From Candidatus Saccharibacteria bacterium QS_5_54_17 (GTDB taxonomy: Bacteria; Patescibacteriota; Saccharimonadia; QS-5-54-17): a stretch of DNA of 32,067 bases. Below are positions 16,334 through 20,649 of the stretch, one piece after another. The stretch spans positions 139,964 through 172,030 of the forward strand of contig PXOU01000018.1 of assembly GCA_003022365.1 (NCBI GenBank). Direction: 5' to 3'. Position 1 is the first letter of the stretch; the number at the start of each line of letters is the position of its first letter. The notes beneath the pieces are model-generated. The model was not told the DNA's origin, did not search any database, and was given only the letters and a program-made list of their open reading frames with translations. The translations under genes were made by a program, and so were the position numbers.

Positions 16334-16352
16334 CTAGACACCCCTTCAGATT

Positions 16353-16379
16353 AAAAAACTTTGGCCTCGACCGCCAAAG
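16353..16379 (-). terminator. Attenuator hairpin upstream of rplJ
   Basis: On the minus strand CTTTGGC (16379-16373) pairs with GCCAAAG (16365-16359), followed directly by six T (16358-16353). It lies only 19 bases before the rplJ start codon and inside its transcript. It therefore acts as an attenuator rather than the end of another gene. Confidence 0.8.
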
Positions 16380-16443
16380 ACATACACGAAACTTGCGCTT
16401 TCCTGCGTTGGTTTCTGGCAACCAACACCTAAAAATGTTTGCA

Positions 16444-16500
16444 AACCTCGGCAGCCTATTAAGCCCTATATCAGAGCAGCTGCTGTCTTTGGTGTAACCA
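16444..16500 (-). ncRNA. L10 leader (ribosomal protein autoregulatory RNA)
   Basis: The minus-strand leader starts near 16500 and reads ACCAAAGACAGCAGC, then after about 20 bases GCTGCCGAGGT. These are the two conserved halves of the L10 leader known from many bacteria. GCAGC and GCTGC pair across an internal segment. A second hairpin (GTTGGTT...AACCAAC) lies between this and the attenuator at 16353. Known mechanism: L10-L12 binding favours the terminator and lowers rplJL expression. Confidence 0.8.
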
Positions 16501-16506
16501 TAGCCT

Positions 16507-16535
16507 ATCCTACGCGGTTGCGCCGGATATGTCAA
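16507..16535 (-). promoter_or_regulatory. rplJL promoter
   Basis: A consensus TTGACA (16535-16530) and TAGGAT (16512-16507) are spaced by exactly 17 bases. The predicted start near 16500 puts the L10 leader motif at the very 5' end of the RNA. Confidence 0.8.
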
Positions 16536-16559: not shown

Positions 16560-16589
16560 TTGACAATCCGGGGACGGGACAACTAGCTT
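16560..16589 (+). promoter_or_regulatory. Divergent promoter for the structured leader and the 425-residue gene
   Basis: TTGACA at 16560-16565 on the plus strand and TAGCTT at 16584-16589 are spaced 18 bases apart. A start near 16596 would begin the RNA about 9 bases before the first stem of the leader. The two TTGACA boxes of the divergent promoters are only 24 bases apart. Confidence 0.5.
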
Positions 16590-16604
16590 CTAGTCCATGA
16601 GGAA

Positions 16605-16750
16605 TCAACCCATCATATTACCCGTCCACGGCAGCCAGGTCCGGAACTTCGGACTGTTGCTTATTGTGGATAAGGTGATGGGTTGAAGCCTGAGCAAAAG
16701 TTAATAAATTACTCCTCCGGGCTTCAACCAAAACGAAGTCCGGATTTTTT
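16605..16750 (+). promoter_or_regulatory. Riboswitch-like structured leader with mutually exclusive antiterminator and terminator
   Basis: Three pairings can be read directly. P1: TCAACCCATCA (16605-16615) with TGATGGGTTGA (16676-16686), 11 perfect pairs. Antiterminator: GGTTGAAGCC (16681-16690) with GGCTTCAACC (16720-16729), 10 perfect pairs. Terminator: TCCGGGCTTC (16716-16725) with GAAGTCCGGA (16735-16744), 10 pairs with one G-U, then six T. P1 and the antiterminator share 16681-16686; antiterminator and terminator share 16720-16725. Formation of P1 would therefore release the terminator. P1 closes a 60-base domain with inner helices TCCAC/GTGGA (16625-16629/16666-16670) and GTCCG/CGGAC (16639-16643/16650-16654). 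I do not recognise the class; it lacks T-box, TPP, SAM or purine signatures. Confidence 0.75.
16716..16750 (+). terminator. Intrinsic terminator in the 5' leader
   Basis: TCCGGGCTTC, loop AACCAAAAC, GAAGTCCGGA, then TTTTTT. It ends 21 bases before the start codon of the downstream gene, with the ribosome-binding site GGAGGAGG just beyond it. Termination here would remove the whole message. Confidence 0.85.
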
Positions 16751-16771
16751 ATGTGAGCGGAGGAGGACAAT

Positions 16772-18049
16772 ATGAGTGCCAATCAAGAAGCGCCTCACTC
16801 AAGTGGAGCAAACCCACTTATGGATTTCGAAGCGCAATCCTACGAGCAACCGCCCAGCAATTACGCCTTTGAGATCACCGTCGATGAAGACATCTCCTTG
16901 AACGAGCTGGCTGAAAAAACCGCCCAAGCTTCGGTGCTGCGGTCAGCTCATGTCGGCAACCAATATAGCTCTAATGTCGCCGTTTTCGAGCATGGACTCC
17001 CCACGGTGCTCTACGACCGCACCATCGCTCCCAGCAACGGACCCGGAACCGACCGGAACTATCGGCCCGAGGTTCTCATCCGGGCCCGCGAGTCCCACCC
17101 GCTCCTGGAGCGGGAAGAGCACCCCTACCGGATGGCCACGCATCTGGAAATCGAACAGATGCCCGAAAATTTGGACGAACGGGTGCGGCAACAGGCAGGC
17201 AAGTATGCGGTCGACTTACACCTTAATTCGCTGCGGGAGGTATTCCCCCACACTCCCAGCCAAACGCACAGCCATTACCTACAACGCCACCAGGCGGTGA
17301 CCGCTGAAATGCTTGACATATTAGGAGGCGATGAGGACTTTTTAAATTCCCTTAATAGAAGAGTATCGCCCCAAGGAACCGTCAGTAAATTGCCCGAACA
17401 CGCTGATCCCGCTCGATGCGTGGAAAACTACGGCTGGTTCGGTATAGACTCCGATGAATCCGGTGTGATTATCCCCAACCAATTCAACGTATTACAATAC
17501 GGCGTTGTTGAGGCCCTGGAAACCCAGGCGGCGGACGTCTACCATCTATCCGGTCCGGATATGATCAAGTACGCCCAGCAGCAAGAATTACAACATACGC
17601 TGCAACAATTCTACGCACGTATCAAACAGCAAGCTTCTTTCGCCGACCAATTACCCGAAACGCTTCGCTTCCACGTGGTGCCGACCGCCCATTTTAAATT
17701 TGTGGTGCCCGGGAGCCAGCAGCCGGAACTGGATGAACTGATGCAGGTCTGTGCTTGGATGGAACAAAGCAGACAACGGCTGCAGCAAACCCGGGATTCC
17801 GGGGAAAAGACCGGGCTCAAATCTGATTTGGAACATATGCATCAACAACGGGATAAACTACTGGAGAACTTAGGCGAATTATTCACTGATGTCACCGACA
17901 AAAATCGCCTTTCCCATTACGACTCGACTGCCTTGGGCGGAGAGGGCGTCTATATTCACCCGGACACGGGACATATGAGCGCTCGCCAGGCAGCGCAATT
18001 GTACAAAGAGTTGCATAAAAGGTATAAAAAAATCACCAAGGATTCATAA
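16772..18049 (+). CDS. Hypothetical protein, 425 residues, no family recognised
   Basis: A soluble, acidic-looking protein with no signal peptide or membrane segment. The start is secure: GGAGGAGG lies seven bases before the ATG. Residues 1-30 look disordered. The next region (YAFEITVDEDISLNELAEKT, SSNVAVFEHGLPTVLYDRTI, YRPEVLIRARESHP) looks like an alpha/beta fold. The middle contains YGWFGIDSDESGVIIPNQFN. A helical stretch, probably a coiled coil, covers about 325-375 (MEQSRQRLQQTRDSG, LEHMHQQRDKLLENL). The tail HPDTGHMSARQAAQLYKEL is helical and basic at its end. The gene is followed after 16 bases by a VanX-like dipeptidase, which points to a cell-wall peptide or amino-acid role (inference). 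No catalytic motif is recognised. Confidence 0.85.
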   Translation: MSANQEAPHSSGANPLMDFEAQSYEQPPSNYAFEITVDEDISLNELAEKTAQASVLRSAHVGNQYSSNVAVFEHGLPTVLYDRTIAPSNGPGTDRNYRPEVLIRARESHPLLEREEHPYRMATHLEIEQMPENLDERVRQQAGKYAVDLHLNSLREVFPHTPSQTHSHYLQRHQAVTAEMLDILGGDEDFLNSLNRRVSPQGTVSKLPEHADPARCVENYGWFGIDSDESGVIIPNQFNVLQYGVVEALETQAADVYHLSGPDMIKYAQQQELQHTLQQFYARIKQQASFADQLPETLRFHVVPTAHFKFVVPGSQQPELDELMQVCAWMEQSRQRLQQTRDSGEKTGLKSDLEHMHQQRDKLLENLGELFTDVTDKNRLSHYDSTALGGEGVYIHPDTGHMSARQAAQLYKELHKRYKKITKDS

Positions 18050-18065: not shown

Positions 18066-18833
18066 ATGCCCGGGTTCCAAAAACGTTTTATCCACAGCTT
18101 CGATGAATTGGCACAAATTCCGATCTCCCAGCGGCACCACTATTACCTGGCACGGCCGTTGTTGGCATCTAAGACAGACTTTACCCATCAGGACGAACCG
18201 CTGGTTATGCGCGGTGAGATCGAATCCGCCGGCATTGTCTGTCAACCATTTTGGGAGGAGGACCAACTTGATGCTGAAGGGGAAGAAACGCGCCGCTACC
18301 AAGAGCACCACCCCGAATTTGACCTGGCGTTACGGAAAACGGCCTTTCAGCGTTTATTGGCAGCCCGGGACAACTTGCCCGAGGCTTATCGAATCATATT
18401 AAAGGCTTCGGTCCGTCCCGTGGAGGTACAGAAAAACCTGTTTCAGAAAGAATTGGAAAACATCCATGCCCAGAACCCTGACATGACGAAAACCCAAGTC
18501 TACGAATACACCCTGCAATTCGTGACCGACCCTGAGGTAAATACACCGCCGCATAGTAGCGGCGGCACCATAGATATCACCTTGCTTGAGACCACCTCAA
18601 ACCAACAAATTGACATGGGAAGCCCCATCAACATGGCCGGGGACGCCTCATGGACGGACTGCACGGACGGCTTAACGGATGAGCAAGCGGCGAACCGGCA
18701 ACTCCTCACCCGTACTATGCTGGAAGCCGGATTTGCCAACTTGCCGTCCGAGTGGTGGCATTATAGCTACGGCGATCAACGCTGGGCAGTCTTCTATGAC
18801 CAGGATCCGCTCTATGAGCGAGCCGAATTATAA
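18066..18833 (+). CDS. D-alanyl-D-alanine dipeptidase (VanX/DdpX-like, peptidase M15 family)
   Basis: A 255-residue cytoplasmic zinc dipeptidase candidate. The M15/VanX zinc site is complete: His163 and Asp170 in PPHSSGGTIDIT (HxxGxxxD), then the catalytic Glu229 and zinc ligand His232 in SEWWHYSYG. Arg117 in SVRPVEVQ sits where VanX has the substrate- and transition-state-binding Arg. No signal peptide is visible, so it would act inside the cell on free D-Ala-D-Ala. AAGGAAAGG precedes the ATG by a normal distance. It is probably co-transcribed with the upstream unknown gene under the structured leader. No vanA-type ligase or vanH is adjacent, so a resistance role is not supported; D-Ala recycling is more likely. 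Confidence 0.85.
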   Translation: MPGFQKRFIHSFDELAQIPISQRHHYYLARPLLASKTDFTHQDEPLVMRGEIESAGIVCQPFWEEDQLDAEGEETRRYQEHHPEFDLALRKTAFQRLLAARDNLPEAYRIILKASVRPVEVQKNLFQKELENIHAQNPDMTKTQVYEYTLQFVTDPEVNTPPHSSGGTIDITLLETTSNQQIDMGSPINMAGDASWTDCTDGLTDEQAANRQLLTRTMLEAGFANLPSEWWHYSYGDQRWAVFYDQDPLYERAEL

Positions 18834-18843
18834 CCGCCCAATC

Positions 18844-20649
18844 CTATTCCTCGATTAATATATCTTCCTCACTCAACCCCAGCTGCCGGGCTTTTGCTTG
18901 GATGCGCCGGAGTTGTTGCTCCCGGCTGATGGCCGGATCGTCATCAGTTTGATTAACGAAAATCATCAGTTCCCCGATCTTGGGGTGCACGGAGCTGATT
19001 TTCTCATGCATGGCATTGGCGATGCGCCGATAACTGGGGTGTCCGGCCGGTTGTGTGCGGAGTTCGATCAGATGGAAGGCCGCCCGGGCGTTGACTTCCA
19101 TTTTCCAGCGCATTTTATCACCCATAAGCGTGGCGTACTGGGCTTCCTGCTCATATCCGGCGTCCATCAATTGCCCGTAGAGTTCCCGGCGGGCGTCCAA
19201 TGCCGCTTGATAGGTTTCCGCCATCCCGGCGGCTTGAATGTCTTCGGGGATGTCATGGCCGAGCATGGGAGATAAATTTTGCCACTCCATACCGTCCACC
19301 ATGCGATGGCGATGGAGATCACGGAAGGCGCCGTAATCACACACCACATCGAACACATAACCGGCATGCTCGAAGGCGCGCCCGGGCTTATGCCGGCGAT
19401 TGCCACGTTCTCCGGCATACACGTCCAGGACCGCGGCTTGTTCTTCCTCGCTCCATTCGGATACTTGTCGGGCGATATCTTCCAGTGACAATCCAGCGGG
19501 AGCATGGGTGTAGAGTAAATAGGGCACCATGTCGTGCTCATTGGCGGGATAATAGTCCACCATATCAACTGTATTGGCGGTTTCTTGCTGTTCATATGAT
19601 CGTAAAGCCGCCCGGCCCAGCTGCCGCATGGCCTGCCGGCTGTGGCGGCGATGGTCGGTTATCGCCTCGCCCCGGTTTTCCATATCGGTCCGCTCAAAGA
19701 ATATGGCCGAGGTCTTGCGTACTTCCTCCAGTATTTGATCGCCGGCTTCCTGCATCTCAGGCAGATCGTGCGAGCGCAACTGCATAATCAAATTATCGAT
19801 CGACTGGGCCGGCGAGGAAATGCCGACCGTGGCAGTGGTGGCGACCGGCAATAGGCTCCGCGCCGCGTCACAAGCCTTACCGCGTATGGCCATCCACCAG
19901 GCGTTGTCGCGTTCCGCCTCCGGCGTGTCGCTTTGGGCGGCATAATAATCGTACATGGCTCTGACGATGTCCGAATAGGAGTCAAACAAATCGTCCATGG
20001 TCTCCTCATAGCTGTCACGTAATTCTTCCGGTAGATGATCGGGGGTATGGTAACGATATTTCCCGTCCACTTTCTGGTCGAAATAGATATACCGGGTGGA
20101 CTGCTCAAGATAGGCGCCGATACGCGGCCATTCCAACTGTTTGGTCAACAGATTGGAGGCATTTTCTACCACCACCGGTAACCCACCGTGTAGTTGAGCT
20201 ACCGAGTCATCGCCGTATTGGGTCACCACCCGGCGGAGTACATCTTCTTCTTTGCCTTCTTGGAGGCTAAACTCTTTCAGAATCAGGTTCCGCATATCAT
20301 GAGGACAGCGGCTCAAACGTGCCATCGCCGCCGCCACAATAACCGGGTTAATATTTTCGGGATAAAAGGTATATACATCCCCCTGCGTATCCGTCACCAC
20401 TTGCTGTAAATAGTGTTCGCCTTCCGGGGTACGGATAAGTTCGCCGGTTTCGCTGTCCCGGCCGATATAATCATTCAGCGATTCGAAGACGCCGCGGTTT
20501 TCCGCCTCTTGATAACGCTGGGTTACCGCTTCTAATGCTCGGGGGTCATTGACTTCTTGGCGGTCTTGAATTTCTTCGGGGTCGTTGACTTCGTTAGTAG
20601 CGACTTCGTTGGTCGCGACTTCATTGATAGCCAGATGTTCTCCACGCAT
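18844..20649 (-). CDS. ThyX-like (FAD-dependent thymidylate synthase family) protein with two ThyX repeats
   Basis: A 601-residue protein in which the ThyX fold occurs twice. The first half has YGDDSVAQLHGG (145-156), WPRIGAYLEQSTRY (174-187) and AARSLLPVATTATVG (262-276). The second has LHRHRM (445-450), NARAAFHLIELRTQ (520-533) and HEKISSVHPKIGELM. The ThyX motif RHRxxSxNxxSxR is incomplete in both: the first keeps the last Ser and Arg but has WPR for RHR; the second keeps RHR but lacks the Ser/Asn pattern. Single-domain ThyX has about 220-250 residues. The N-terminus carries a NEVATNEVATNEV tandem repeat, translated since AAGGAGG precedes the ATG. It lies after tmk and dcd on the same strand, supporting a dTMP role, though activity is unproven. 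Confidence 0.85.
   Translation of the reverse strand: MRGEHLAINEVATNEVATNEVNDPEEIQDRQEVNDPRALEAVTQRYQEAENRGVFESLNDYIGRDSETGELIRTPEGEHYLQQVVTDTQGDVYTFYPENINPVIVAAAMARLSRCPHDMRNLILKEFSLQEGKEEDVLRRVVTQYGDDSVAQLHGGLPVVVENASNLLTKQLEWPRIGAYLEQSTRYIYFDQKVDGKYRYHTPDHLPEELRDSYEETMDDLFDSYSDIVRAMYDYYAAQSDTPEAERDNAWWMAIRGKACDAARSLLPVATTATVGISSPAQSIDNLIMQLRSHDLPEMQEAGDQILEEVRKTSAIFFERTDMENRGEAITDHRRHSRQAMRQLGRAALRSYEQQETANTVDMVDYYPANEHDMVPYLLYTHAPAGLSLEDIARQVSEWSEEEQAAVLDVYAGERGNRRHKPGRAFEHAGYVFDVVCDYGAFRDLHRHRMVDGMEWQNLSPMLGHDIPEDIQAAGMAETYQAALDARRELYGQLMDAGYEQEAQYATLMGDKMRWKMEVNARAAFHLIELRTQPAGHPSYRRIANAMHEKISSVHPKIGELMIFVNQTDDDPAISREQQLRRIQAKARQLGLSEEDILIEE

Follow-up and report, generated by a model that had tools for sequence, protein, structure and literature searches.

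Leader-peptide attenuation is known in the trp operons of Proteobacteria and Actinobacteria (Corynebacterium, Streptomyces), where classical trp leaders carry tandem Trp codons (PMC1262725). The locus described here lies in a 32,067-nt stretch of a Saccharibacteria genome (the window, meaning the whole stretch analysed) and belongs to a family of leaders found in other Patescibacteria. It resembles the trp attenuators in having an upstream open reading frame (uORF), mutually exclusive hairpins between regions 1:2, 2:3 and 3:4, the last with a T-run, and a uORF whose end or stop codon lies in or beside region 2; in most family members a Trp codon stands upstream of region 2. In contrast to trp leaders, there is usually one Trp codon rather than two or three, the uORF begins about one turn behind the -10 element and is thus near-leaderless, and the operon serves neither Trp biosynthesis nor trpS, consisting in the window of a gene for a 425-aa protein and an M15 peptidase gene. 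Moreover, the window's own leader lacks Trp and is not detected by Rfam.

The ilvB-II motif of Corynebacterium is a structured leader that was first sought as a non-coding RNA and was then recognised as a uORF attenuator (PMC10272879). The present leader is likewise a candidate structured RNA that turns out, here judged from sequence, to look like a uORF attenuator. Unlike it, ilvB-II encodes peptides rich in branched-chain amino acids, controls ilv biosynthesis and is confined to one genus (PMC10272879). The layout of P1, antiterminator and terminator in the window is also that of transcriptional riboswitches, but a conserved aptamer is missing and the apparent aptamer is translated-looking sequence. 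A further comparison is TnaC. This leader peptide of the tryptophanase operon has one key Trp, senses free Trp and acts through Rho. Most family leaders similarly encode a short putative peptide with one presumed key Trp, but have an intrinsic terminator and an alternative antiterminator hairpin instead of Rho.

Taken together, our analysis indicates that the window leader is very likely a ribosome-mediated transcription attenuator of the leader-peptide (trp/his) type, placed before the 425-aa gene and the dipeptidase gene. The first-pass annotation had proposed a riboswitch-like attenuator with three competing helices, and all three are present where it had placed them, on the forward strand. 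The 5' arm of P1 (region 1, uORF codons 3-7; 16605..16615, TCAACCCATCA) pairs perfectly over 11 bp with the 3' arm (16676..16686, TGATGGGTTGA), which overlaps both the uORF stop codon and the 5' arm of the antiterminator. The latter arm, region 2 (16681..16692), pairs over 12 bp with region 3 (16718..16729; GGTTGAAGCCTG with CGGGCTTCAACC), so that 16681-16686 are common to P1 and the antiterminator. Region 3 in turn shares 16718-16726 with the intrinsic terminator hairpin (16716..16744; arms 16716-16726 and 16734-16744, 11 bp, -15.4 kcal/mol), which runs into TTTTTT at 16745..16750. The leader folds at -63.2 kcal/mol, whereas 200 dinucleotide shuffles average -41.7 +/- 4.1 kcal/mol and none of them reaches its stability (z = -5.3; 0/200). 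The energy of the antiterminator alone is ordinary relative to shuffles of this GC-rich leader (p=0.26), and support for this helix therefore comes from the family. The mutually exclusive helices of a transcription attenuator (11, 12 and 11 bp, plus six T) are thus borne out, and the leader also falls, as had been suggested, outside the known Rfam classes: Rfam 15 gave no match at the gathering threshold, and the two matches at E<=10 were at chance level, far below their thresholds. A search for a second copy of the leader across the 0.8-Mb genome of the window found none.

What the first-pass annotation overlooked is a uORF that runs across P1 and its "60-base domain". This unbroken frame of 29 codons (16597..16686, forward strand; ATG at 16597, TGA at 16684-16686) encodes the putative leader peptide MRNQPIILPVHGSQVRNFGLLLIVDKVMG*. 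Its stop codon falls within the six bases common to P1 and the antiterminator, the terminator hairpin starts 29 nt past the stop, and the supposed domain is coding sequence of the uORF. The ATG lies 37 nt downstream of the start of a -35-like TTGACA (16560..16565), which is followed at a spacing of 18 by a weak -10-like TAGCTT (16584..16589); the RNA is therefore predicted to start only a few nucleotides upstream of the uORF. Behind the terminator, a Shine-Dalgarno-like AGGAGG (16761..16766) precedes the 425-aa gene. The peptide is devoid of Trp and of extended runs of any one amino acid. On the other strand, an L10_leader (RF00557, 49.1 bits) occupies window positions 16343-16510 upstream of rplJ, which is divergent from the attenuated gene both here and at the homologous locus L012.

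A uORF with a comparable stop position arises in 15% of shuffles of the window leader. Since such a frame is not rare by chance in one leader, the test has to rest on homologues. They were found by a profile search of genome contigs, where a single-protein search had returned nothing, and those available for the window's gene share at most about 37% protein identity with it. The family is sparse, occurring in ~1-14% of genomes in the Patescibacteria groups searched, with hosts among Saccharibacteria, Uhrbacteria, Campbellbacteria, Parcubacteria and others.

Every homologue leader examined has, ahead of the terminator, a short ATG frame (once GTG) that in most cases closely follows a promoter-like element. 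A -35-like TTGAC, TTGCA or TTGAT stands 35-49 nt ahead of the uORF in 22/24 leaders, being absent from L022b, which carries an inserted element, and present only at -18 in L025; -10-like hexamers lie ~10-16 nt ahead of the uORF in most homologues. The distance from uORF stop to terminator is 17-40 nt in the readable leaders (median 24.5, sd 4.9 nt). Under a definition that calls for an ATG frame of 19 or more codons and a stop codon 15-42 nt ahead of the terminator, 24/24 leaders have a uORF, whereas dinucleotide shuffles would lead one to expect 3.1; the nominal joint p (1e-21) overstates the case, because this definition was fixed after inspection and the set includes related leaders (L022, L047, L048). 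Three uORFs from Uhrbacteria are near-identical to one another. All ten leaders added later have the uORF as well, and an automatic scan of 14 loci, which also demanded complementarity, detected the pattern in 13/15 family genes but in only 2/55 other genes with long upstream regions. With these counts, it is very improbable that the uORF arose by chance and that the structure is either a mere terminator separating the gene from the divergent rplJ promoter region or a constitutive attenuator, even though 15% of the shuffles of the window leader yield such a frame.

The competing helices recur to differing degrees. Region 2, usually located at the uORF's end, pairs with the 5' arm of the terminator in nearly all of the 24 leaders (Fisher chi-square 197, 48 df) and in 10/10 later leaders (z -2.6 to -8.7). 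The protecting 1:2 pairing is weak in the family overall (median z -0.9) and strong in the window, with its 11 bp. A DNA alignment of 15 homologous leaders, searched for a common aptamer-like sequence, yielded no conserved block, and its only invariant letters are the ATG and one T. This lack of common sequence speaks for a translated element rather than a shared aptamer.

The same observations bear on the idea that a cell-wall or D-amino-acid ligand binds the domain closed by P1 and thereby decides between P1 and the antiterminator. We regard such a metabolite riboswitch as improbable. The strong P1 of the window, with a stable internal hairpin inside the region that it closes, would suit it, as would partner genes that act on D-Ala-D-Ala or dipeptides; however, the domain codes for a uORF that is found in every readable homologue, invariance among the 15 leaders is limited to the letters given above, and Rfam provides no match. 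Of the first-pass reading, the attenuator logic therefore stands, whereas the metabolite-binding aptamer finds no support, since what recurs instead is the translated-looking uORF with its fixed stop-to-terminator spacing and, in most leaders, a Trp codon at a set distance from the antiterminator arm. Riboswitch-like leaders should accordingly be checked for a uORF before any ligand is proposed.

The uORF, the alternative helices and their spacing, together with the position of Trp in the family, can be read directly in the DNA. If the uORF of the window is translated, a ribosome that reaches the stop of its 29 codons would cover region 2, allowing the terminator (3:4) to form and ending transcription. 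Without a ribosome, P1 (1:2) would sequester region 2, and the terminator would form again. A ribosome stalled within the uORF, presumably for want of charged tRNA, would break P1 and free region 2 to pair with region 3, and the resulting antiterminator would let the genes be transcribed. In the family, the stall codon would most likely be Trp, ~9-11 (less often 3-8) codons ahead of region 2. We modelled folding with a 31-nt ribosome mask at equilibrium, ignoring the order of transcription, and for illustration only. In the window, the predicted probability of the terminator is 0.88 both when the leader is free of ribosomes and when one sits at the uORF stop, while that of the antiterminator is 0.90 with the A site on codons 3-12; modelled in this way, the three ribosome states suggest classical attenuator logic. 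For L018, L022, L023 and L025, it predicts that the terminator prevails wherever the ribosome stalls.

The family points to Trp as the probable signal in most of its members. A Trp codon lies -11 to -3 codons before region 2 in 13/22 non-redundant uORFs, compared with 5.8 expected when residues are permuted within each peptide (p=2.5e-4), and other limits of this interval give a similar result. Among the uORFs scored later, 10/10 have Trp in the same interval (3.3 expected, p=2e-4), in eight cases at positions -9 to -11, and no other residue is comparable; four of these ten were read right after the first Trp test and six after the pattern had been recorded. The uORFs of L060 and L074, beyond the ten scored, carry Trp too. 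In most homologues the Trp codon is single, not tandem. Tyr is weakly enriched by position (p 0.034 in the first set, p 0.019 in the later set). His was considered as the control amino acid and rejected: it occurs in 21/22 uORFs, yet without positional enrichment.

A single Trp recalls TnaC, which makes nascent-chain arrest a serious, if rather unlikely, rival for the way in which the ribosome would stall. In that case the leader peptide together with free Trp, a drug or another ligand would jam the ribosome, instead of uncharged tRNA, and induction would increase with the ligand. The Trp is usually flanked by His, Tyr or Lys (YKHWN in L021 and L022/L047; elsewhere WHY, HYYLW and YWHF) rather than by another Trp codon, TnaC likewise has a single essential Trp, and the Trp-less leaders carry hydrophobic F(G)L/I stretches at the place of Trp. 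However, arrest peptides usually conserve several residues, and here none but Trp is clearly enriched by position, Tyr being weak; moreover, the operon resembles one for scavenging and not for Trp breakdown or drug resistance.

We retain stalling at a scarce charged tRNA as the preferred reading, for which the amino acid sensed in the window has to be considered separately. Six leaders are without Trp: the window, L011, L012, L016, L023 and L025. A tree built for the 425-aa family joins the window to L011 and L012 (91/79) and L016 to L023 (100/100), so that three Trp changes are required and Trp was probably lost in whole clades. At the Trp position of the Trp-less leaders, Phe is enriched (9 vs 4.1 expected, p 0.001). 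The window has F18 at the equivalent position, and its clade has Phe, Leu or Ile codons there. The evidence for F18 as the single control codon is thin, and we take it as a positional lead only. A stall at F18 was tried in the equilibrium model and antitermination was not predicted; a ribosome near this Trp-aligned codon 18 gives none, and only codons 3-12 do, which encode Asn, Gln, Pro, Ile, Leu, Val, His and Gly. Candidate signals for the window are thus Phe or one of the amino acids of codons 3-12.

The 425-aa protein (16772..18049, forward strand) belongs to a Patescibacteria family, and sequence searches of Pfam, NCBIfam and PDB with it returned no match. Two blocks are conserved in the family, "(T/S)xHVGN" and "HLSGPDM". 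AlphaFold2 models the homologue L016 with confidence (pLDDT 95.9); a Foldseek search of PDB with this model gave no significant match (best E 0.08), and the top matches (E 0.08-1) were mostly to the HIGH superfamily, namely pantothenate synthetases, GluRS and ArgRS. The conserved "HVGN" sits between a preceding beta strand and a following helix, a placement that the HIGH signature shares. The 425-aa protein is therefore possibly a distant HIGH-superfamily enzyme, similar to class I aminoacyl-tRNA synthetases or pantothenate synthetase, and an ATP-dependent amino-acid ligase would be a reasonable guess rather than a result.

The second gene of the unit (18066..18833, forward strand) encodes an M15 D-Ala-D-Ala dipeptidase-like protein (PF01427, E=4.6e-19), and the two genes stand in the same order in L011 and L012. 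In many other homologues the downstream gene is of the M19 membrane-dipeptidase type, and in another arrangement a racemase comes next, with an alpha/beta-hydrolase peptidase behind it. Homologous operons frequently include an Asp/Glu racemase, which the operon in the window lacks. The link to D-amino-acid and dipeptide genes, from which the first-pass annotation had guessed at a ligand, thus extends to the family through the M15 or M19 dipeptidases and the racemase. The best reading of these gene contents is that the operon handles amino acids or dipeptides by means of a ligase-like protein, a dipeptidase and usually a racemase. Convergent behind the M15 gene, the window encodes a 601-aa protein with two ThyX (PF02511) matches (18844-20649, reverse strand), which adjoins a thymidylate kinase and a dCTP-deaminase-like gene; at this site L011 and L012 have a single protein of 758-811 aa with a thymidylate-kinase-like N-terminal start.

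Patescibacteria depend on hosts and are without most amino-acid biosynthetic pathways, and their gene regulation is poorly understood (PMC11665869). In the open-access literature we found no report of leader-peptide attenuation in this group. If our reading is correct, an attenuator conserved across Saccharibacteria, Uhrbacteria and Parcubacteria would report amino-acid starvation directly in these bacteria, and its control codon, Trp, would provide a testable clue to the function of an otherwise uncharacterised protein family. A broader proposal, which we hold only tentatively and consider somewhat less probable than its negation, is that single-Trp leader peptides across Patescibacteria, responding to Trp-tRNA charging or, by arrest, to free Trp, control an undescribed ligase/dipeptidase/racemase operon, and that in at least two clades, including that of the window, the control codon was switched along with the paralogue, the peptide reporting the amino acid that its operon handles. 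The 425-aa gene occurs twice in each of two genomes, the copies having different leader peptides (L008/L012 and L010/L014 in G327; L022), and in G327 the partner genes of the copies differ too.

Several further arrangements were seen among the homologous loci. Two leaders (L030 1176-1470 and L052 1202-1450) each contain two uORF-terminator units in tandem, apparently doubled attenuators. A uORF with terminator and antiterminator also precedes an MFS-transporter-like gene in L017 (4150-4560) and a small acetyltransferase-like gene in L023 (8735-8911), which may be further attenuators or chance patterns. Finally, in L022 (7231-7432) an insert of ~170 nt with long inverted ends (ATAGTCATCACATTATGAAAT...ATTTCATAATGTGATGACTAT) lies between the promoter and the uORF of the second tandem gene copy.
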